Both the position numbers and the translations under genes were made by a program. Below, piece by piece: positions 53,784 to 62,074 of a stretch of DNA of 64,000 nt (the first letter of the stretch is position 1; every line of letters begins with the position of its first letter). The notes beneath the pieces are model-generated. The model was not told the DNA's origin and did not search any database. It worked only from the letters and a program-made list of their open reading frames with translations. This DNA is from Citricoccus zhacaiensis. Lineage in GTDB: Bacteria > Actinomycetota > Actinomycetes > Actinomycetales > Micrococcaceae. The stretch covers positions 72,052-136,051 of the forward strand of contig NZ_BMLQ01000007.1 in the NCBI RefSeq assembly GCF_014645315.1. Reading direction: 5' to 3'.

Positions 53784-55169
53784 TCAGCGGAGGTCGCGGC
53801 GGGCGGTCTCCGGCATCTTGATGATGACCACCACGCTAACCAGGCAGAGCAGGATCATGTAGCCCACGAACAGCCCGTGCATCCCGATGCTGGACAACCA
53901 GGTGTTCAGATAGGGCGCCGTGCCGCCGAAGATCGCCCCGGAGGTGGCGTATCCGACGCCGATCAGCGTGGCTCGCAGCTTGGTCGGGACCAGTTCGGCG
54001 AAGACGGCGCCGAGCGGGGCGCAGTTCGCGGCCAGCAGCAGCGAGCCGGCGGCCATGGCCAGGAAGAGCATGAACGGGCTCGGGCCGAGCATCCACTCCA
54101 GGGGAAAGGCCACGAGTGCGAAGCCGGCGGCGAAGACCATCAGCACCGGCTTGCGCCCGAAGCGGTCGGAGAGTCTGCCCATCACGGGGATGGCCACCAG
54201 GAACACGGCCTGTCCGCACAACCCGGCCACCAGGGAAGCGTTCGGGTCCATGCCGAACTCGCGTGATGCGTAGCCGGGGGCGAAGATGAACCAGGTGTAG
54301 AAGGCCACCACGCCGGAGATCGTCAGGCCGACGATCTGCAGCAGCGGCTTCCACTCGCGGCCCAGCTCAGAGAAGACCTCCCGCAGGGACTGGGAGTCCG
54401 CACCCTCGCGTTCGTCACGCTCCTTGCGCTCGGTATGCACCTCGGACTCATTCATGGTCCTGCGGATGTAGAGCGCATAGACCCCGAGGACAGCCGCGAC
54501 GGCGAAGGGGATGCGCCAGCCGAACTCGGCCATCTGCGCCTCGGAGAGCAGTGCGGTCAGCAGCACGCCGACGCCGGTGGCGAGCATGGTGCCCACCCCC
54601 ACGCCGAGCCACGGGGTAGAGGCCCAGAAGCCGCGCTTGTCCTGCGGGGCGATCTCCGCCAGATAGGTGAACGCGCTGCCGGTCTCGCCGCCATGCGACA
54701 GGCCCTGGATGAGGCGGGCCACCAGGAGGACGACGCCGGCCCACACACCGATCGCGTCAAAGGTCGGTGCGACGGCGATCAGCAGGGAACCGAAGGAGGC
54801 CAGCAGGATGGCCAGGGTCAGGCTGAACTTCCTCCCCTTGTCATCCGCCAGCCGGCCGAACAGCCACCCGCCCACCGGACGCATAAGAAAACCGACCGCA
54901 AAGACGGCCAGCGTGGAGAGCAGGCTGGAGACCGGGTCCTCAGCGCGGAAGAACTGGGCGGCGAAGAACGGCGCGAAGATCGCGTAGATGTTCCAGTCGA
55001 ACCACTCCAGGGCATTGCCGATGTTGACGGCGACGAGGTCCCGGGGCCGGCCGGCGCGCGGCGCGGTGCCGGCGGTGGTGGCCGTGTGGGGACCGGGCGA
55101 TGAGACGGATGCGGGGTCCGGAGAAGGGCCACCCGAGGCGCGGGGCTGGGAAACGGTGCTGTGATCCAT
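53784..55169 (-). CDS. MHS-family MFS transporter
   Basis: A 461-residue permease of the metabolite:H+ symporter (MHS) branch. About 12 helices; signatures NIGNALEWFDWNIYAIFAPF as ALEWFDWNIYAIF, RPVGGWLFGRLADDKGRK, LIQGLSHGGETGSAFTYLAE and the second-half RLSDRFGRKPVL. The N-terminal 40 residues are Pro/Ser-rich and cytoplasmic. MHS carriers take up organic acids, aromatic acids, proline/betaine or shikimate. GAGGTG precedes the ATG. Divergent from a DUF3237 gene, downstream of it the LysR gene. Confidence 0.9.
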   Translation of the reverse strand: MDHSTVSQPRASGGPSPDPASVSSPGPHTATTAGTAPRAGRPRDLVAVNIGNALEWFDWNIYAIFAPFFAAQFFRAEDPVSSLLSTLAVFAVGFLMRPVGGWLFGRLADDKGRKFSLTLAILLASFGSLLIAVAPTFDAIGVWAGVVLLVARLIQGLSHGGETGSAFTYLAEIAPQDKRGFWASTPWLGVGVGTMLATGVGVLLTALLSEAQMAEFGWRIPFAVAAVLGVYALYIRRTMNESEVHTERKERDEREGADSQSLREVFSELGREWKPLLQIVGLTISGVVAFYTWFIFAPGYASREFGMDPNASLVAGLCGQAVFLVAIPVMGRLSDRFGRKPVLMVFAAGFALVAFPLEWMLGPSPFMLFLAMAAGSLLLAANCAPLGAVFAELVPTKLRATLIGVGYATSGAIFGGTAPYLNTWLSSIGMHGLFVGYMILLCLVSVVVIIKMPETARRDLR

Positions 55170-55217
55170 AACACCTCATGGTGCCCCTGACCGTTGGTGA
55201 TCTCAACGGAATTCGCT

Positions 55218-55232
55218 GTGCATCGGATGCAC
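55218..55232. promoter_or_regulatory. Candidate operator between MHS permease and DUF3237 gene
   Basis: Perfect 15-bp palindrome GTGCATCGGATGCAC with a further TGTGCAT half-site at about 55240. Located 48 bp from the permease start and 36 bp from the -10 of the DUF3237 gene. Confidence 0.65.
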
Positions 55233-55267
55233 GGAGGATGTGCATGGCGTCCGCAGCGAGCCGGCCC

Positions 55268-55273
55268 TAGCGT
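55268..55273 (+). promoter_or_regulatory. -10 element of leaderless DUF3237 gene
   Basis: TAGCGT followed by exactly 7 nt and the ATG at 55281; no ribosome site upstream. Confidence 0.5.
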
Positions 55274-55280
55274 GGTGCTC

Positions 55281-55817
55281 ATGTCCCAGATTTCCACCCC
55301 CGCCTCCTCGGCGCCGGCCTCTGTCTCCACCGCCGGGCGCCCCGACGCCACCGCTGGCCCCACGCCGCCCCGACTCGAGTTCCTGGCCACCGTGGCGGTG
55401 GACGTGGCCGAGCCCGTGGAGGTCGGACGGACCCACCGGGGGTTGCGCCGCGTCATCCCGATCTCCGGCGGCACCGTCACCGGCCCCGGGCTGAACGGTC
55501 GCATCCTGCCCGGCGGGGCGGACTTCCAGCTCATCCAGTCGGAGACGGCTTCGGACCTGGATGCCCGGTACGTCATCGAGACCGACGACGGCGACCGGCT
55601 CTACGTCATGAACGCGGCCTACCGCACGGGCTCGGCCGAGGACATCTCCGCCCTGGCCCGCGGTGAACGGGTGCCCGCCGAACGGATCTACTTCCGCTGC
55701 GCGCCCCGCTTCGAGGTGGCCGGCGAGACCTGGTCCTGGCTGGAGTCCACCGTGGTCATCGGCTCCGGCCGCCGTGAGCCCGACCGGGTCATCATCGACC
55801 TCTGGACGGTCTGCTGA
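55281..55817 (+). CDS. DUF3237 (UPF0311) family protein
   Basis: A 178-residue protein with a disordered N-terminus of about 28 residues and a DUF3237 beta-barrel domain: VGRTHRGLRRVIPISGGTV, LNGRILPGGADFQLI, DARYVIETDDGDRLYVMN and a C-terminal RVIIDLWTV. Biochemical function of the family is not established, though members sit in aromatic or terpenoid catabolic clusters. The start is set by the leaderless promoter; an upstream in-frame codon at 55194 lies before it. Divergent from the MHS permease and convergent (9 bp) with the Lrp-type regulator. Confidence 0.88.
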   Translation: MSQISTPASSAPASVSTAGRPDATAGPTPPRLEFLATVAVDVAEPVEVGRTHRGLRRVIPISGGTVTGPGLNGRILPGGADFQLIQSETASDLDARYVIETDDGDRLYVMNAAYRTGSAEDISALARGERVPAERIYFRCAPRFEVAGETWSWLESTVVIGSGRREPDRVIIDLWTVC

Positions 55818-55826
55818 AGGACTGCA

Positions 55827-56855
55827 TCAATCCCAGTGGTGGCCCACCTCGACGAAGTCCTCCTGCCGCCGCCCGTCGGTGTCCAAGTGCCACCCGGCAC
55901 GTTTGGGGATATTCGAGATGATGACGGTCTCGCGGATCTCCAGGCGGGGCAGCCTCTCTGATGCCCGCCGCTCCAAGGCCATGATGTCCGTGGGGGATCG
56001 GTGCCACATCATGAACATGAAGTTGGAACGGCCCGTCGTCGAGGCGCACAGGCGCAGGGCGCCGAGCCCGGCCAGTTCGGTGGCCGCTGCGTCGTGGTCG
56101 GCGGCCGGGAGCCGGGCGAACCACTGGCACATCACGGGATAGCCCGTGGCCCGGTGGGACACGTCGCAGCGAAAGCTCAAGGTGCCGGAGTCCAGCACCC
56201 GCTGGAGCCGGCGTCGTGCTGTGGCCGGGTGCAGGCCGGTGGCCTCGGCGACCTGTGCCGCAGAAGCCCGGCCATCGCGGCCGAGGACGCGCAGAATGGG
56301 GCCGAAGGACGGCGGCGGGGGCCCCGGGTGCGCCTCGGGTGCCGACGGCGGACCGGCGGCCGCACGGAGTGCGCGCCGCTGAGCGGAACTCAGGGCATCG
56401 AGTTCCCAGTTGGCCGCGGTGCGGTGCAGGCGGGTGCAGAAGGTGGACTCATAGCCGGACAGGTGGGCAATGTCTTCGAGCTGCGGATAGACGATCTCCG
56501 TGAGCTGGGTTGGATCGGGGGAGATGACGGTCAGCATGAAATCCCGGTCCCGGTGACATTCCTCCACCGAGAACACCTCCGGAATCCTGCCGATGGCCTC
56601 GGCAACTTGCCGCCGGTGGCCGGGTTGGCACCGGACGTCATGGAAGGACAGGGCCATCTGATCCGGGTGCCCCAGAGGGTGGGCGGTGATCCAGGCGGAG
56701 CCGCTGCGCTCGAGTCGGCGCCACCGGGCGGCCAGTGAGGTCGGATGCTGGCCGAGGATCTCGCCCAAGACCGTCCATGGCAAGCGTGGGCCGATCTGCA
56801 GGGCATGGACCAGTTGGAGATCGCCTTCATCCAGGAGCCGGGGGTCATTGTTCAT
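55827..56855 (-). CDS. Duplicated Lrp/AsnC-family regulator
   Basis: A 342-residue protein made of two AsnC/Lrp modules in tandem. Module one: LDEGDLQLVHALQIGPRLPW with HTH GEILGQHPTSLAARWRRLER, then a ligand domain to about residue 150. Module two: FGPILRVLGRDGRASAAQVA with ATGLHPATARRRLQRVL, then a RAM-like domain to the end. Double-Lrp proteins are known in actinobacteria. ATG 56855 has GGGGAAG upstream. It is divergent from the DUF5058 operon (145-bp gap), making it the probable regulator of that system, with an amino acid or peptide product as effector. Confidence 0.9.
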   Translation of the reverse strand: MNNDPRLLDEGDLQLVHALQIGPRLPWTVLGEILGQHPTSLAARWRRLERSGSAWITAHPLGHPDQMALSFHDVRCQPGHRRQVAEAIGRIPEVFSVEECHRDRDFMLTVISPDPTQLTEIVYPQLEDIAHLSGYESTFCTRLHRTAANWELDALSSAQRRALRAAAGPPSAPEAHPGPPPPSFGPILRVLGRDGRASAAQVAEATGLHPATARRRLQRVLDSGTLSFRCDVSHRATGYPVMCQWFARLPAADHDAAATELAGLGALRLCASTTGRSNFMFMMWHRSPTDIMALERRASERLPRLEIRETVIISNIPKRAGWHLDTDGRRQEDFVEVGHHWD

Positions 56856-57000
56856 GATCTTCCCCAAGCAGCCAACGAGTGTAAATTTCCTGCGAATGTC
56901 CACGAAGTGATGTAGCGCACACCACAATGGTAGCGACCAACTGCATCAATCTGCTTCCGGGCTCCGCACTGGAACCGAACTCACGAATCGAAGGACCGCC

Positions 57001-57780
57001 ATGATCGCTGCAGCAAGCGTGGCCGCCGCCCAGGCCGCCGACCCGAGCTCGGATCCGAATGCTGTGTTGGCCCTGGCCAACATGCCCGTCCTCTGGATCT
57101 GTGCCCTGGGCGTCTTCCTGGTCATCGCCATCCAATCGGTGATCTACATGATGGCCGCCCGCAAGGCTGCGCCGGCCGCCGGCCTGAGCCAACAGGAGCT
57201 GAAGACCACGTTCCGGACCGGGGCCATCGCGGCGATCGGTCCTTCGCTGGCGGTCGTCCTCGTGGCCGTCGCCCTGCTGGCCCTGTTCGGCACCCCGGCC
57301 ACCCTGGTCCGCATCGGCCTGATCGGATCGGTGCAGTATGAGACGGCCGCCGCCAGCATCGCAGCCGGGACGGTCGGCGCGGAACTGGGCGGTCCCTCCT
57401 ATGACCAGCAGGCATTCGCCATCATGTTCTTCGCCATGAGCCTGGGCGGGGCCATGTGGATGCTTTCCACCCTGATCCTCACGCCCCTGCTGAAGAAGGG
57501 CGAGCACCGCATGGCCAAGGTCAACCCGGCTCTCATGACCGTGGTCCCGGCGGCCGCCCTGCTGGGTGCCTTCCTCTCCCTCGGCTTCGCCGAGGTGCCC
57601 AAAAGCTCCGTGCACGTGATCACCCTGGCCGCCTCGGCGCTAGTGATGGGGGCGTGCCTGCTGCTGGCCCGCCTGCCGGGGATGCGGTGGCTGCGCGAGT
57701 GGGGACTCGGCATCGCCATCCTCCTCGGCCTCGCCGCCGCCTACCTCGCCCAGGCCGCCGGGTTCGCGCCCGCCGCCTGA
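57001..57780 (+). CDS. DUF5058 family membrane protein
   Basis: A 259-residue integral membrane protein with about six or seven helices, matching what I know as DUF5058. Identifiable stretches are MPVLWICALGVFLVIAIQSV, then the cytoplasmic FRTGAIAAIGPSLAVVLV, an extracytoplasmic or re-entrant GSVQYETAAASIAAGTVGAE, and AMSLGGAMWMLSTLILTPLL. It is first of three genes: this protein, a second membrane protein 51 bp on, and a coupled M20 peptidase. The pair is likely a two-component transporter for the peptidase substrate. GAAGGACCGCC precedes the ATG. Confidence 0.8.
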   Translation: MIAAASVAAAQAADPSSDPNAVLALANMPVLWICALGVFLVIAIQSVIYMMAARKAAPAAGLSQQELKTTFRTGAIAAIGPSLAVVLVAVALLALFGTPATLVRIGLIGSVQYETAAASIAAGTVGAELGGPSYDQQAFAIMFFAMSLGGAMWMLSTLILTPLLKKGEHRMAKVNPALMTVVPAAALLGAFLSLGFAEVPKSSVHVITLAASALVMGACLLLARLPGMRWLREWGLGIAILLGLAAAYLAQAAGFAPAA

Positions 57781-57831
57781 GCCCGCCCGCCCCGCACACC
57801 CCTTGACCTCCCTCCATCGCCAGGAGTCCTG

Positions 57832-58602
57832 ATGACCGCACCATTCGCCACCACATCCGGTGCCACCGCCACCACCTCCACACCCGCCGCGTCGCCGGGC
57901 AGCATGGCCGAATTCGACGCCACCACCTCGCGGTGGGGCCGGCTGACCATGCTGGCCGGCCTAGTCTTCTCCCTGGCCGGCCCGCTCTACCTGGTCTTCT
58001 TCGCCGACCTCGGCGTGACCGCCACCGCCCTCTTCACGGCCTTCGCCGCCGTCGCCGGCACCTTCTTCGTCATCTGGATCATCGAGCCGATCACCTATTT
58101 CCCGATCCTGGGCCCGGCCTCGATGTACCAGGCGTTCATGATCGGCAACATCTCCAACAAGCTGCTGCCCTCTGCCCTCATCGCCCAGGCGCGGATCGAC
58201 GCCAGGCCGGGGACGCACCGCGGCGGCCTCGCGGCCGTCATGGCCATCTGCGGTGCGGCCTTCGTACACCTGCTCTCCCTGCTCGTCTTCGTGGGGATCC
58301 TCGGCACCTGGCTCATCAGCGTGATCCCGGAATCCGTCACGGACGTGGTCCGGGTGTACGTCCTGCCCGCTGTGCTGGGCGCGGTCATCATCCAGGCCAT
58401 CGTCTCCCTCAAGCAGGTCCGCGCCACGGCGGTGGCCGCGGTCGTGGCCGCCCTGGTGCAGTTCGTGCTGGTTCCCCTGGTGCCCGCCCTGGGCATGGCC
58501 GCCACGGCGATCTCCGTGATCGTCACCCTCGTGATCGGCTGGTACGTGCGCAAGCGCGAGCCGTTCGAGCCCACCACCACCGAAGGAGAGACTCACCCAT
58601 GA
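57832..58602 (+). CDS. Membrane partner protein of DUF5058
   Basis: A 256-residue membrane protein with about seven helices. I do not recognise a named family. After a Thr/Ala-rich N-terminus come LTMLAGLVFSLAGPLYLVFF, TAFAAVAGTFFVIWIIEP, a conserved-looking loop ITYFPILGPASMYQAFMIGN with ISNKLLPSALIAQ, then four helices and a basic C-terminus (VRKREPFEP). The loop with Pro, Gly and Asn resembles a substrate-path element. AGGAG precedes the ATG. Its stop overlaps the peptidase ATG (ATGA), so the membrane pair and the peptidase are synthesised together. Confidence 0.78.
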   Translation: MTAPFATTSGATATTSTPAASPGSMAEFDATTSRWGRLTMLAGLVFSLAGPLYLVFFADLGVTATALFTAFAAVAGTFFVIWIIEPITYFPILGPASMYQAFMIGNISNKLLPSALIAQARIDARPGTHRGGLAAVMAICGAAFVHLLSLLVFVGILGTWLISVIPESVTDVVRVYVLPAVLGAVIIQAIVSLKQVRATAVAAVVAALVQFVLVPLVPALGMAATAISVIVTLVIGWYVRKREPFEPTTTEGETHP

Positions 58603-59825
58603 CCGACATCAGCGAGTATCCGGACATTCCGGCTGAGCTGCGCCAACGCATGCTCGACTTCTACCGGCACCTGCACGCGAACCCGGAGCTGTCCATGCAG
58701 GAGCACGCCACGGCGGCGTTCATCGAGGCGCACCTGGACACGCTGGGCATCGAACACTTCCGCTGCGGCGGCACCGGCGTCGTGGGTGTGCTGCGCAACG
58801 GAGAGGGGCCCGTCGTCGGGTTCCGGGCAGACACGGACGGATTGCCGATCCAGGAGGACTCCACGGTCGACTACCGCAGCACCGCCCGTGGCACTCTGGC
58901 CGATGGCACCGAGGTGCCGGTGATGCACGGCTGCGGCCATGACACCCACGTGGCCGCGCTGATGACGGCCGCCGAGGTCCTGGCTGCGGACCGGGACAGC
59001 TGGTCCGGCACCCTGGTGCTCCTCTTCCAGCCGGGGGAGGAGACCGCGGCCGGTGCCCAGGCGATGGTGGAGGACGGCCTGTGGGAGAAGGCCCCGCAGC
59101 CCGAGATCATCTACGGGCAGCACGTCATGCCGGGGTTGGCCGGGACCGTCGAGGTGGTCTCCGGGCCGGCCATGGCCTATGCGGACTCCTGGAAGGTGAC
59201 GCTGTACGGCGAGCAGTCCCACGGCTCGCAGCCCCAGGACTCCATCGACCCCATCGTGCTTGGGGCGCACATCGTCACCCGCCTCCAGGGCATCGTCTCC
59301 CGGGAGATCGGACCCCGCCGGGCCGCCGTCGTGACCGTGGGCACCTTCCACGCCGGCCTGAAGGAGAACATCATCCCGGCCACCGCCGAGTTCACGCTGA
59401 ACGTGCGCACCATGGAGGACGACGTCCGCGAGAGCGTCCTGGCCGCGATCCGCCGCATCATCTCCGCCGAGGCGGCCGCCTCCGGCGCCCCCGAGCCCCG
59501 GATCGAGGAGCTGTACCGCTTCCCGCGGAACCTCAACGACCCGGACGCGACGGCGGCGCTCGCCGAGGTGCTGCGCGGCGCCCTGGGTGCCGAGAACGTG
59601 CTGGACGGCGAACCCCGGATGGGCTCCGAGGACTTCGGCACCCTGCCCGGGGCGCTCGGTGTACCCTCCGTGTTCTGGTTCTTCGGCGGCTTCGACGCGG
59701 CCACCGTGGAGTCCGGCACCATGCCGGTCAACCACTCGCCCCGCTTCGTCCCCGTGCCGGAGCCCACCCTCTGGACGGCGGCGACGGCGGCACTCGCCGC
59801 CCTGCGATCCCGCCTCGGTTCCTGA
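58599..59825 (+). CDS. M20D-family amidohydrolase (IAA-amino-acid hydrolase/AbgB-like)
   Basis: A 408-residue cytoplasmic zinc or manganese amidohydrolase. Metal and catalytic motifs in order are GFRADTDGLPIQE, MHGCGHDTHVA with the Cys-Gly-His-Asp-x-His signature, LFQPGEETAAG with the Glu pair, GQHVMPG, and MGSEDFG near the end. No signal peptide. The family cleaves N-acyl or N-aroyl amino acids and amide conjugates. ATG 58599 overlaps the membrane partner stop and has GGAGAG upstream. The substrate is presumably brought in by the two preceding membrane proteins. Confidence 0.92.
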   Translation: MTDISEYPDIPAELRQRMLDFYRHLHANPELSMQEHATAAFIEAHLDTLGIEHFRCGGTGVVGVLRNGEGPVVGFRADTDGLPIQEDSTVDYRSTARGTLADGTEVPVMHGCGHDTHVAALMTAAEVLAADRDSWSGTLVLLFQPGEETAAGAQAMVEDGLWEKAPQPEIIYGQHVMPGLAGTVEVVSGPAMAYADSWKVTLYGEQSHGSQPQDSIDPIVLGAHIVTRLQGIVSREIGPRRAAVVTVGTFHAGLKENIIPATAEFTLNVRTMEDDVRESVLAAIRRIISAEAAASGAPEPRIEELYRFPRNLNDPDATAALAEVLRGALGAENVLDGEPRMGSEDFGTLPGALGVPSVFWFFGGFDAATVESGTMPVNHSPRFVPVPEPTLWTAATAALAALRSRLGS

Positions 59826-59839
59826 TCCCGAACCAACGC

Positions 59840-59896
59840 TTTCAGTCGAGTTGGGGTGGGTGGTTTCGCAGAAGACCCACCCCAACTCGACTGAAA
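59840..59896. terminator. 22-bp perfect hairpin between convergent genes
   Basis: Perfect 22-bp arms (59840-59861 and 59875-59896, outer bases TTTCAGTCGAG / CTCGACTGAAA) with a 13-nt loop between the convergent peptidase and ACMSD-type amidohydrolase genes. The A/T ends of the stem give a short U-tract in both directions, so it should act bidirectionally. Confidence 0.85.
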
Positions 59897-59906
59897 AGGT
59901 GTGGGG

Positions 59907-60962
59907 TCAGAGCTCCAAGTCGAACACGCGAGTGGCGATGCCCTCGAAGAACTCGAACCTCTCCTCGTCCGTCAGCGGCAGCTTGTCCTGGAGCTCCACC
60001 TCGGAGGGCTCGTACTGGTACGGGTAGTCCATCGCGTACATCACCCGGTCCGCACCCATCATCTTCCGGACGAACATGATCTCGTCCTCCCAGGGCATGC
60101 CGCTGGTGGTGATCCAGACGTTGCGGCGGATGTACTCCGAGGGCTTCAGCGGCAGCGGCTTCACGTGCGCGTAGCGGCCGGTGGCCACCTGCTTGCCGTA
60201 CATGTAGTCGATCCGGTTCAGCCAGAACGGCACGGCCTCGCCGAGGTGGCCGACCACGAGCTTCAGGGCCGGAAAGCGCTCGAACACCCCGGAGACCACC
60301 AGCCGCATCAGGTGCAGGCCGGTCTCCACCCCGAAGCCGTACATCGAGCCGTCCAGGCCTCGGTCATGCAGCGGCTTGAACAGGCCGGCGGAGGGGGCGT
60401 TGGGATGCAGGTAGACGGGCACCCCCAGGGACGCGGCGGCCTCGTAGAACGGCAGGAACTCGGGGGAATCCGTGTAGCGGTCCCGCACGTGGGAGTTCAG
60501 GATGGCGCCCTTGAGGCCCAGTTGCGTGACGGCCCGCTCAAGCTCGGCGGCGCCGGCATCGGCTGCGGTGAAGGGCACGGCGGCCAGCCCGGAGAAGCGG
60601 TCGGGCCGCTTCCGGACGATGTCCCCCAGGTGGTCGTTCGCCACCCGGGCGAGGTCGGTGGCCTGGGCGGCGGCCAGGGGGTTGGTCCCCGGTGCGGTCA
60701 GGGCCAGGATCTGATGGTCGACGCCGGCCGCGTCCATCTCCTGCAGGCGCACCCCCTCGGTGTCCACCATGCGCTCCCGGATGAACCGCGGGCGCTCCCC
60801 GTCGCCGAGCGCGTAGTAACCCATCAGGCTCATGAAGCCCGGATCGTCCTCAGGGTGCTCGCCCAGGATCCGGCGGAAGAGGTCGAACATCTCCGGCGGG
60901 GCCCAGGCCTCCTCGGTGGCGATACGGCGGTAGGGGCGGGGGGCTGCGGCGGGGCTGGTCAT
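59907..60962 (-). CDS. Amidohydrolase-2 (ACMSD/gamma-resorcylate decarboxylase type)
   Basis: A 351-residue metal-dependent TIM-barrel protein of the amidohydrolase-2 family, which includes ACMSD, LigW-type and gamma-resorcylate decarboxylases. Metal ligands visible are Glu in ATEEAWAP, His in PVYLHPN, His in VVGHLGE and Asp in AMDYPYQ. It should decarboxylate or hydrolyse an aromatic or unsaturated acid. ATG 60962 has AAGGACC upstream; an in-frame ATG at 61022 overlaps the upstream gene stop. It is 56 bp after an ABC binding lipoprotein gene and near IclR, consistent with an aromatic-acid module. Confidence 0.9.
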   Translation of the reverse strand: MTSPAAAPRPYRRIATEEAWAPPEMFDLFRRILGEHPEDDPGFMSLMGYYALGDGERPRFIRERMVDTEGVRLQEMDAAGVDHQILALTAPGTNPLAAAQATDLARVANDHLGDIVRKRPDRFSGLAAVPFTAADAGAAELERAVTQLGLKGAILNSHVRDRYTDSPEFLPFYEAAASLGVPVYLHPNAPSAGLFKPLHDRGLDGSMYGFGVETGLHLMRLVVSGVFERFPALKLVVGHLGEAVPFWLNRIDYMYGKQVATGRYAHVKPLPLKPSEYIRRNVWITTSGMPWEDEIMFVRKMMGADRVMYAMDYPYQYEPSEVELQDKLPLTDEERFEFFEGIATRVFDLEL

Positions 60963-61018
60963 GTGCGGGGGTCCTTGTCTCTCTCGGGGGTGGTCGTCGG
61001 CGGTGGTGCGGGACGGGG

Positions 61019-62074
61019 TCACTCGGCCGCGGGGGTAACGATGTCCTCCACGGTGATCTCCTCGTCCATGAGCCCATAGCGGACCATGCGCTCGTTGAGG
61101 AACTGCAGGGTCTCCTCGTCCACGCTGGCGTTCCAGACCGGCAGGTGGATCTGGCCGGCGAGGTCGGGTTCGATCGTGGTGACCTCGGGGAGGGCCTCAC
61201 GGAACGCGTCCGGGTCCTCGGCGATCGCCTGGCCCGTGGCGTCGACGCCCCGCTGGAACGCCTCCACCACCTCCGGGTTCTCGGCGGCGTAGTCCTCGGA
61301 GGTCATGTAGGTGCCCACCATCATGTCCGGCCGGGATTCGGTATAGGGGCTGGCGACCTCCACGGCCCCCTGGTCCAGTGCCATGGTGACGAAGGGTTCG
61401 ATGAGCAGGGCGCCGTCCACCTGGCCGTTGGCCACCGCCGGGAGCATGTCGGAGAAGCCCATCTCCGCGAAATTGACCTGCTCGCGGTCCGCGCCCGCAT
61501 CCTCCATCAAGGTCATGATGACCACGTCGTTGATGTTCTCCAGCGTGTTGACCGCGATGGTGGCGCCCTCGAGGTCGGAGACCTCCTCGATCCCGCTGGA
61601 GCTGGAAGCCACGATGCGGGCGAAATCCTCGGCGGGTTCCGCCACGGTGCGGGTGCCGGCTGCCACGATGGTGATGGGCAGGCCCTTGCTGGCGGCCAGG
61701 ATGGCACTGACGGTGTTCGAGCCGGCGAACTGGGTCTCTCCGTTGACCACGGCCGGCACGGCTGCGGCACCGCCGATGCTGACGTCCACCGTGACGTCCA
61801 GGCCCTCCGCCTCGAAGTAGCCCTCGTTCACCCCGTACTGGAGGAAGGCCGAGGGCATGCCGGCGGTGTCCGCCACCCGGACCTCCGTGGTGCCCTCCGT
61901 CCCGCCCGTTCCGGTAGCGGCGCCCTCGGCGGGCGACCCTGTTCCAGCGCCGGACTCCTGGCCTGAGGTGCCGCCACCGCCGCAAGCGGTCAGCAGCAAG
62001 GGTGCTGCCAGCAGTGGTGCCAGCCAGCGGCTGCGTCGCCGGGGGCTCGTCCATGTCCTCGCGGTCGTGCTCAT
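61019..62074 (-). CDS. NMT1/SsuA-type ABC substrate-binding lipoprotein
   Basis: A 351-residue binding protein. Signal peptide with lipobox: RRRSRWLAPLLAAPLLLTAC, Cys at about residue 31, then a Gly/Thr-rich linker. The mature domain has AFLQYGVNEGYFEAEGLDV, AGSNTVSAILAASKGLPITI and DLEGATIAVNTLENINDVV, typical of the NMT1/THI5/SsuA family that binds nitrate, sulfonates, aromatic acids or thiamine precursors. No ATPase or permease gene is in the window, so it is either an orphan or uses a distant transporter. AAGGAG precedes the ATG. Confidence 0.9.
   Translation of the reverse strand: MSTTARTWTSPRRRSRWLAPLLAAPLLLTACGGGGTSGQESGAGTGSPAEGAATGTGGTEGTTEVRVADTAGMPSAFLQYGVNEGYFEAEGLDVTVDVSIGGAAAVPAVVNGETQFAGSNTVSAILAASKGLPITIVAAGTRTVAEPAEDFARIVASSSSGIEEVSDLEGATIAVNTLENINDVVIMTLMEDAGADREQVNFAEMGFSDMLPAVANGQVDGALLIEPFVTMALDQGAVEVASPYTESRPDMMVGTYMTSEDYAAENPEVVEAFQRGVDATGQAIAEDPDAFREALPEVTTIEPDLAGQIHLPVWNASVDEETLQFLNERMVRYGLMDEEITVEDIVTPAAE

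Follow-up and report, generated by a model that had tools for sequence, protein, structure and literature searches.

Two adjacent membrane proteins of Citricoccus zhacaiensis, one of the DUF5058 family and the other a partner of no named family, are quite probably obligate subunits of a single importer of conjugated amino acids that occurs in both bacteria and archaea. Their genes lie in a 64,000-nucleotide (nt) stretch of DNA, here termed the window, to whose positions all coordinates refer unless another contig is named. They form a collinear trio on the + strand (57001-59825) with the gene of an M20D amidohydrolase. The DUF5058 gene (57001-57780; 259 amino acids, aa), encoding proposed subunit 1, matches PF16481 with an E-value of 1.7e-65; the partner gene (57832-58602; 256 aa), encoding proposed subunit 2, belongs to no Pfam or NCBIfam family; and the hydrolase gene (58599-59825; 408 aa) falls into TIGR01891. 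The hydrolase ATG at 58599 overlaps the TGA of the partner gene at 58600-58602 (ATGA, as read from the sequence). An earlier annotation of the window (the original prediction) had described two membrane proteins ahead of an M20D amidohydrolase with such an overlap, and this layout is borne out by the open reading frames (ORFs), by Pfam and NCBIfam, and by the sequence.

It is proposed that the heteromer would import N-acyl or other amide-conjugated amino acids, and that the linked cytosolic M20-type hydrolase would split the amide into an amino acid and an acyl or aryl acid. Each subunit is predicted to consist of six transmembrane (TM) helices and one broken-helix (hairpin-like) segment, with the two subunits in opposite orientation, and the pair may operate as a pseudo-symmetric heteromer by alternating access. 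The exact amino acid probably differs by lineage; for AbgB-like enzymes the substrate may be of the p-aminobenzoyl-glutamate type. If correct, this would provide a function for DUF5058 and for the unnamed partner family, from relatives in Arthrobacter to gut Clostridia, Alphaproteobacteria, spirochaetes and haloarchaea. No paper on DUF5058 or PF16481 was found in the open-access literature, a search that leaves most subscription journals outside its coverage, and none in the same literature combined amidohydrolase, AbgB, PucR, membrane protein and gene cluster, in agreement with the description of the system as undescribed.

Conserved pairing and linkage to amide hydrolases

The original prediction was staked on the partner accompanying DUF5058 in other genomes, and a survey of DUF5058 neighbourhoods found the two genes side by side almost throughout. 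Among 100 family-level genomes, the Pfam model of DUF5058 and the partner protein served as independent queries. Each returned 37 matches, distributed over an identical set of 30 genomes, and all 37 pairs were adjacent with DUF5058 first. A more distant set was obtained by scanning contigs with the partner alignment and taking the best 80 of 470 relatives, which come from Alpha- and Betaproteobacteria, Bacillota, Desulfotignum, spirochaetes and Pyramidobacter. In 79 of these 80 loci the gene immediately upstream of the partner is that of DUF5058 (78 recognized by hidden Markov model, HMM, and L069 from a fragment where the contig ends).

Whole-genome searches for both families in 50 of the 80 distant genomes (L052-L101) returned up to five matches per genome, with 92 of 96 partner matches and 92 of 95 DUF5058 matches forming adjacent pairs at a median spacing of 52 bp. 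Since possession of a partner locus was the criterion for choosing these genomes, at least one pair in each is to be expected, and it is the further copies and their adjacency that are informative. Of the seven unpaired matches, four are at contig ends (C115 and C135 of G801; C27 and C28 of G794), one is an additional piece of a gene already counted in a pair, and the other two reach E-values of about 4e-4.

The family is rare at greater breadth. DUF5058 exceeds the cut-off in 3 of 396 phylum-level genomes, that of C. zhacaiensis included, and in 27 of 297 order-level genomes; the window's own genome has a single match, at 57001-57780. At the order level a single genus code (f79/g271) accounts for 16 of 28 matching genomes. 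Matches are also found on plasmids, including those of Arthrobacter and Paenarthrobacter. On a plasmid of Vibrio diabolicus (L032, 5986-7417), the DUF5058 gene is broken in two and the partner gene apparently intact, with three transposase genes nearby.

Amide hydrolases are strongly associated with the pair. For this comparison genes were called as naive ORFs of at least about 200 aa, and were counted as near when within 500 bp on either side of the pair and as far when more than 4 kb away. Seven hydrolase seeds were used, three of them being themselves neighbours of the pair; E. coli AbgA and AbgB and the hydrolase of PDB entry 6SLF served as outside seeds. With all seeds, an M20-type hydrolase was found within 500 bp of the pair in 76 of the 80 distant loci, and M20 genes made up 82 of 139 near genes versus 1 of 387 far genes. 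These three outside seeds alone gave 69 of 80 loci, with 74 of 139 near genes versus none of 387 far genes. Together with the 37 adjacent pairs out of 37, these counts uphold the core of the original prediction, in which two membrane proteins are coupled to an amidohydrolase.

The pair is constant, whereas the class of the hydrolase beside it varies between loci. By best seed, 36 loci carry an AgaA-type (M20D) enzyme, 33 an AbgB-type, five a PepT-like and two a carbamoylase-like enzyme, and seven of the 33 AbgB-type loci also hold a second, M20D, gene. Among the four loci without a seed match, L069 has an M20 gene and L098 has a PF01425 amidase beside the pair. The hydrolase gene mostly precedes the pair in Alphaproteobacteria and mostly follows it in Bacillota. 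Direct downstream neighbours match TIGR01891 at 1e-5 or better in 58 of 64 cases, and for 31 of these 64 proteins E. coli AbgB is the best match (38-43% identity over at least 420 aa), so that the pair takes a place next to AbgB-like genes comparable to that of AbgT in the abg operon. The plasmid loci L033 and L034, with broken or scattered ORFs, were excluded from these neighbour sets. Within the window's own family, an M20 gene was found in the 1.5 kb fetched in 17 of 19 loci. The linkage extends to six haloarchaeal plasmid loci, all of which contain DUF5058, a hypothetical protein and then an amidohydrolase or M20 hydrolase; two haloarchaeal hydrolases that were compared are 38-39% identical to AbgA.

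Predicted architecture and known transporters

The DUF5058 protein matches PF16481 over the complete profile (221 bits against a cut-off of 28.2; positions 1-222 of 222). The partner has no match in Pfam or NCBIfam at E ≤ 0.1, and the 81 members of its family gave scattered weak matches only when compared with Pfam (best E 0.003). AlphaFold monomer models are fair for DUF5058 (predicted local distance difference test, pLDDT, 85.6; predicted template modelling score, pTM, 0.69) and weaker for the partner (pLDDT 77.1; pTM 0.57).

An alignment of 170 unique pairs, out of 247 found, has six hydropathy peaks in DUF5058 and six in the partner. Each subunit probably contains six TM helices, the predicted N-terminus being outside in DUF5058 and inside in the partner. 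The alternation of positive charge gives this N-out orientation for DUF5058 in 163 of the 170 pairs, the N-in orientation for the partner in 169, and both together in 162; as the faces were assigned after the means had been seen, and the sequences are related, these counts are a measure of consistency and not an independent proof. Both proteins have a conserved broken-helix region: in DUF5058 it covers 96-137 and includes P99, R104, G109 and E114, and in the partner it covers 85-135 and includes E85, P86, Y89, P91, G94, Y99, F102, G105, N106, N109 and P113. Of the columns conserved at 90% or more, 8 of 14 in DUF5058 (hypergeometric 7e-4) and 12 of 17 in the partner (hypergeometric 1e-5) fall into the stretch that joins helices 2 and 3. 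The models contain broken helices at 98-107/111-124 in DUF5058 and 64-104/107-121 in the partner, with the break at a conserved glycine in both.

Homology between DUF5058 and its partner was sought with hhalign and rejected, alignments of 11 and 10, 76 and 81, and 170 and 170 sequences all giving probabilities below 1%, the last no better than reversed controls.

Heteromeric transporters in which two gene products lie in opposite orientation are known from the small multidrug resistance (SMR) family, where antiparallel pairs such as EbrAB make up one transporter. SMR proteins are roughly half as large as DUF5058 and its partner. They are also mutually homologous, unlike DUF5058 and its partner, which are not detectably so. 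A parallel in layout may be offered by elevator carriers, for which a review describes helical hairpins in many cases and inverted repeats in almost all, with two hairpins and inverted repeats tabulated for MtrF and YdaH (PMC7329351). Set beside the charge and conservation layout of the pair, these features lead to the proposal of a transporter whose halves are encoded as separate genes. We infer an inverted repeat divided between the two genes, each product having six helices and a broken-helix region and the two having opposite topologies. Together the pair is predicted to resemble AbgT-type and other elevator transporters in having twelve helices and one broken-helix region per half, in opposite orientation. 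Unlike those transporters, the pair is split over two genes, with no sequence similarity detected and no fold match in the PDB. If true, an inverted repeat shared out between two genes whose products have no detectable homology to each other would bear on transporter evolution.

In gene organization the pair can be compared with abgA-abgB-abgT of E. coli, encoding a p-aminobenzoyl-glutamate hydrolase and the AbgT symporter, in which a membrane carrier likewise adjoins M20-type hydrolases. Unlike AbgT, a single protein of 508 aa, the carrier here would be made of two small proteins, neither of which matches PF03806, the AbgT family, in Pfam. A more specific version of the proposal, which is plausible though somewhat less likely than not, is that the pair forms a new-fold antiparallel heteromer that scavenges N-acyl or otherwise conjugated amino acids, and that it may replace AbgT beside AbgB-type enzymes in Bacillota and AbgA-type enzymes in haloarchaea.

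Substrate and alternative explanations

The window hydrolase scores 265.4 bits against TIGR01891 (cut-off 153.75). Its closest PDB entry is 6SLF, the N-alpha-acyl-glutamine aminoacylase AgaA of Corynebacterium striatum, at 41.6% identity over 373 aa. C112, H114, E147, E148, H175 and H379 align with the two-zinc site of 6SLF and its neighbouring Glu, E147 presumably being the general base. Residue roles in 6SLF follow PMC7209930. The window hydrolase shares with AgaA the five zinc ligands, the general base, the carboxylate-holding Arg264 and Asn251 and, of four residues given as binding the glutamine side chain, Glu140 and Asp340. It differs in the other two of these, Asp301 being replaced by Y306 and Asn191 by S197, and in five of the six acyl-pocket residues other than His168. 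Since the carboxylate binders are kept and two glutamine contacts changed, the substrate is likely to be an amide-linked amino acid whose alpha-carboxylate is free, and glutamine is not implied. By eye, without a predictor, no signal peptide was seen; given this and the retained catalytic and carboxylate-binding residues, the substrate should have to enter the cell.

The possibility that the window hydrolase is the AgaA orthologue was rejected, as the two glutamine contacts are lost and another gene of the same genome is nearer to AgaA (49% versus 44%). This second gene, an AgaA-like hydrolase on contig C1 (L230; 31995-33131), has no DUF5058 pair adjoining. No close AgaA orthologue was found in 394 class-level genomes, the best near-full-length match being 49% identical and one partial match 50%.

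In the haloarchaeal loci, gcv genes occur within 6 kb of the pair in three (as a row of four in two of them), lpdA and lipA in two more, and genes for enoyl-CoA hydratase and hydroxyacyl-CoA dehydrogenase near the pair in the sixth. From the gcv and lpdA/lipA neighbours, glycine conjugates such as acyl-glycine are a fair guess for the haloarchaeal substrate. Around the window trio, an Amidohydro_2 gene, a carrier gene of the major facilitator superfamily (MFS) and a lipoprotein-like gene give no clear pointer to a substrate. Acyl-glutamine odour precursors are at least one case of conjugated amino acids for which the importer is still sought. A review of axillary odour (PMC7209930) holds that skin bacteria have to take up such precursors and gives the transport protein as unknown, and a second (PMC12609316) does likewise for C. 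striatum.

A number of observations weigh against the importer proposal. At the level of gene content, one partner gene (L046) has no detectable DUF5058 and no hydrolase was found near it, one pair (L052) has no adjoining hydrolase and an MFS gene only, and two of the 19 loci of the window's family (L017 and L028) have no M20 gene in the 1.5 kb fetched. At the level of structure, a Foldseek search of the PDB with either monomer model returned nothing at E below 1, and a profile search of PDB sequences returned nothing for the partner and one weak, unrelated match for DUF5058 (E 0.43). Profile comparison with E. coli AbgT, as a single sequence, rejected homology (probability 0.1-0.2%; in reverse 0.1-0.3%). 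In the absence of homology between the halves, the inverted-repeat idea draws on layout and charge only. Mean-field direct coupling analysis (DCA) of the 170 pairs (effective number of sequences about 109 at 80%) placed 55 inter-protein pairs among the top 100, close to their share of about 51% of all pairs. The number fell to 7, 1 and 0 in three within-clade shuffles and to 0 and 0 in two full ones; as shared ancestry of neighbouring genes can explain this drop, no claim of contact is made. Finally, gene linkage alone gives neither the direction of transport nor proof of a complex, and AbgT is matched at an E-value below 1e-100 in 17 of 50 pair-bearing genomes, or 22 of 50 pass the AbgT cut-off once short matches count.

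These points lend themselves to other explanations. The lack of mutual homology and the DCA share would suit two separate proteins, for instance a transporter and an accessory protein or chaperone, that serve one pathway without forming a joint transport unit; no fused gene turned up either, in work that included no dedicated search for one. This is nevertheless unlikely in view of the near-absolute one-to-one pairing and matching copy number across phyla, with the same gene order in archaea, and of the similar size and layout and complementary charge pattern of the two proteins. Alternatively, the pair may be a heteromeric exporter or exchanger for the amino acid or the freed acid, with the conjugate entering through another carrier. 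The silence of linkage on direction leaves room for this, and candidates for such a carrier would be the AbgT of the 17 genomes and the MFS proteins encoded near the window trio (53784-55169) and beside the L052 pair. Against this, the pair is constant across loci whose hydrolases belong to classes with different products. Moreover, among 22 genomes with an AbgB-type neighbour in the fetched locus, a hand-read count found AbgT at E below 1e-100 in four and not in 18, which therefore have no obvious AbgT-type importer, and export is accordingly regarded as distinctly improbable. Least likely of all, the hydrolase linkage would be incidental and the pair would serve some general purpose, for instance in ion homeostasis or lipid handling. 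This would be in keeping with the failure of both models to match a solved fold, and with a gene of the TRIC cation channel family that lies less than 3 kb from the DUF5058 unit on four of the six haloarchaeal plasmids (L031, L300, L301 and L303), but it is at odds with the steep contrast between near and far genes, with either set of seeds.

Regulator, inverted repeat and neighbouring genes

Divergent from the trio lies an Lrp/AsnC-type regulator gene on the - strand (55827-56855; 342 aa from the ATG). The ORF extends to 56927 from a TTG, and the ATG at 56855 is judged the more likely start. PF13404 and PF01037 exceed their cut-offs; Pfam places helix-turn-helix (HTH) regions, of HTH_AsnC type and HTH_24, at 32-73 and 211-248, and one AsnC_trans_reg domain at 98-165. 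The description of the protein as a double Lrp thus holds for the two HTH regions, and a second ligand-binding domain, which Pfam does not detect, is a matter of inference.

The original prediction tied the Lrp regulator to the system and put forward the freed amino acid as its ligand, a suggestion that stands as conjecture; the regulator as a fixed part of the system was rejected. A divergent Lrp-like gene is present in only 12 of 51 non-overlapping loci sampled from the window's order and phylum (identity is 39-93% in seven and 24-27% in the other five), a recount that replaces an earlier tally of 19 of 70 in which overlapping loci of the same genomes were included. Elsewhere the genes near the pair often encode PucR-type regulators: in a set made up mostly of Bacillota, a PucR domain is found in 17 of 40 second downstream genes. 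The Lrp link is lineage-specific.

Between the hydrolase gene and a convergent gene is a perfect inverted repeat (59840-59896). Its two arms, at 59840-59861 and 59875-59896, are exact and 22 nt long, and enclose a loop of 13 nt. On the + strand its RNA is predicted to fold at -45.8 kcal/mol (z-score -10). It had been taken for a perfect bidirectional terminator closing the unit; the inverted repeat is indeed perfect, but there is no U-run on either side of it, and a terminator scan of 55000-61000 called none. Allowing up to two mismatches, a genome-wide search finds the 22-nt arm at 19 places, 14 of which combine into seven arm pairs; a reversed control gives none. The repeat is thus a recurrent genome element, not special to the DUF5058 unit, and its role as a terminator particular to this unit was rejected. 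The element, with a sequence close to TTTCAGTCGAGTTGGGGTGGGT, recurs on contigs C1, C2, C3, C4, C6, C7, C8, C11 and C12, and falls between long ORFs (called naively) in all five places looked at.

The convergent gene encodes an Amidohydro_2 (PF04909) protein and lies on the - strand at 59907-61022. It is followed in the window by an ORF on the same strand (61019-62074) whose product by eye resembles a lipoprotein or substrate-binding protein, and the two perhaps make up a separate unit for uptake and degradation.

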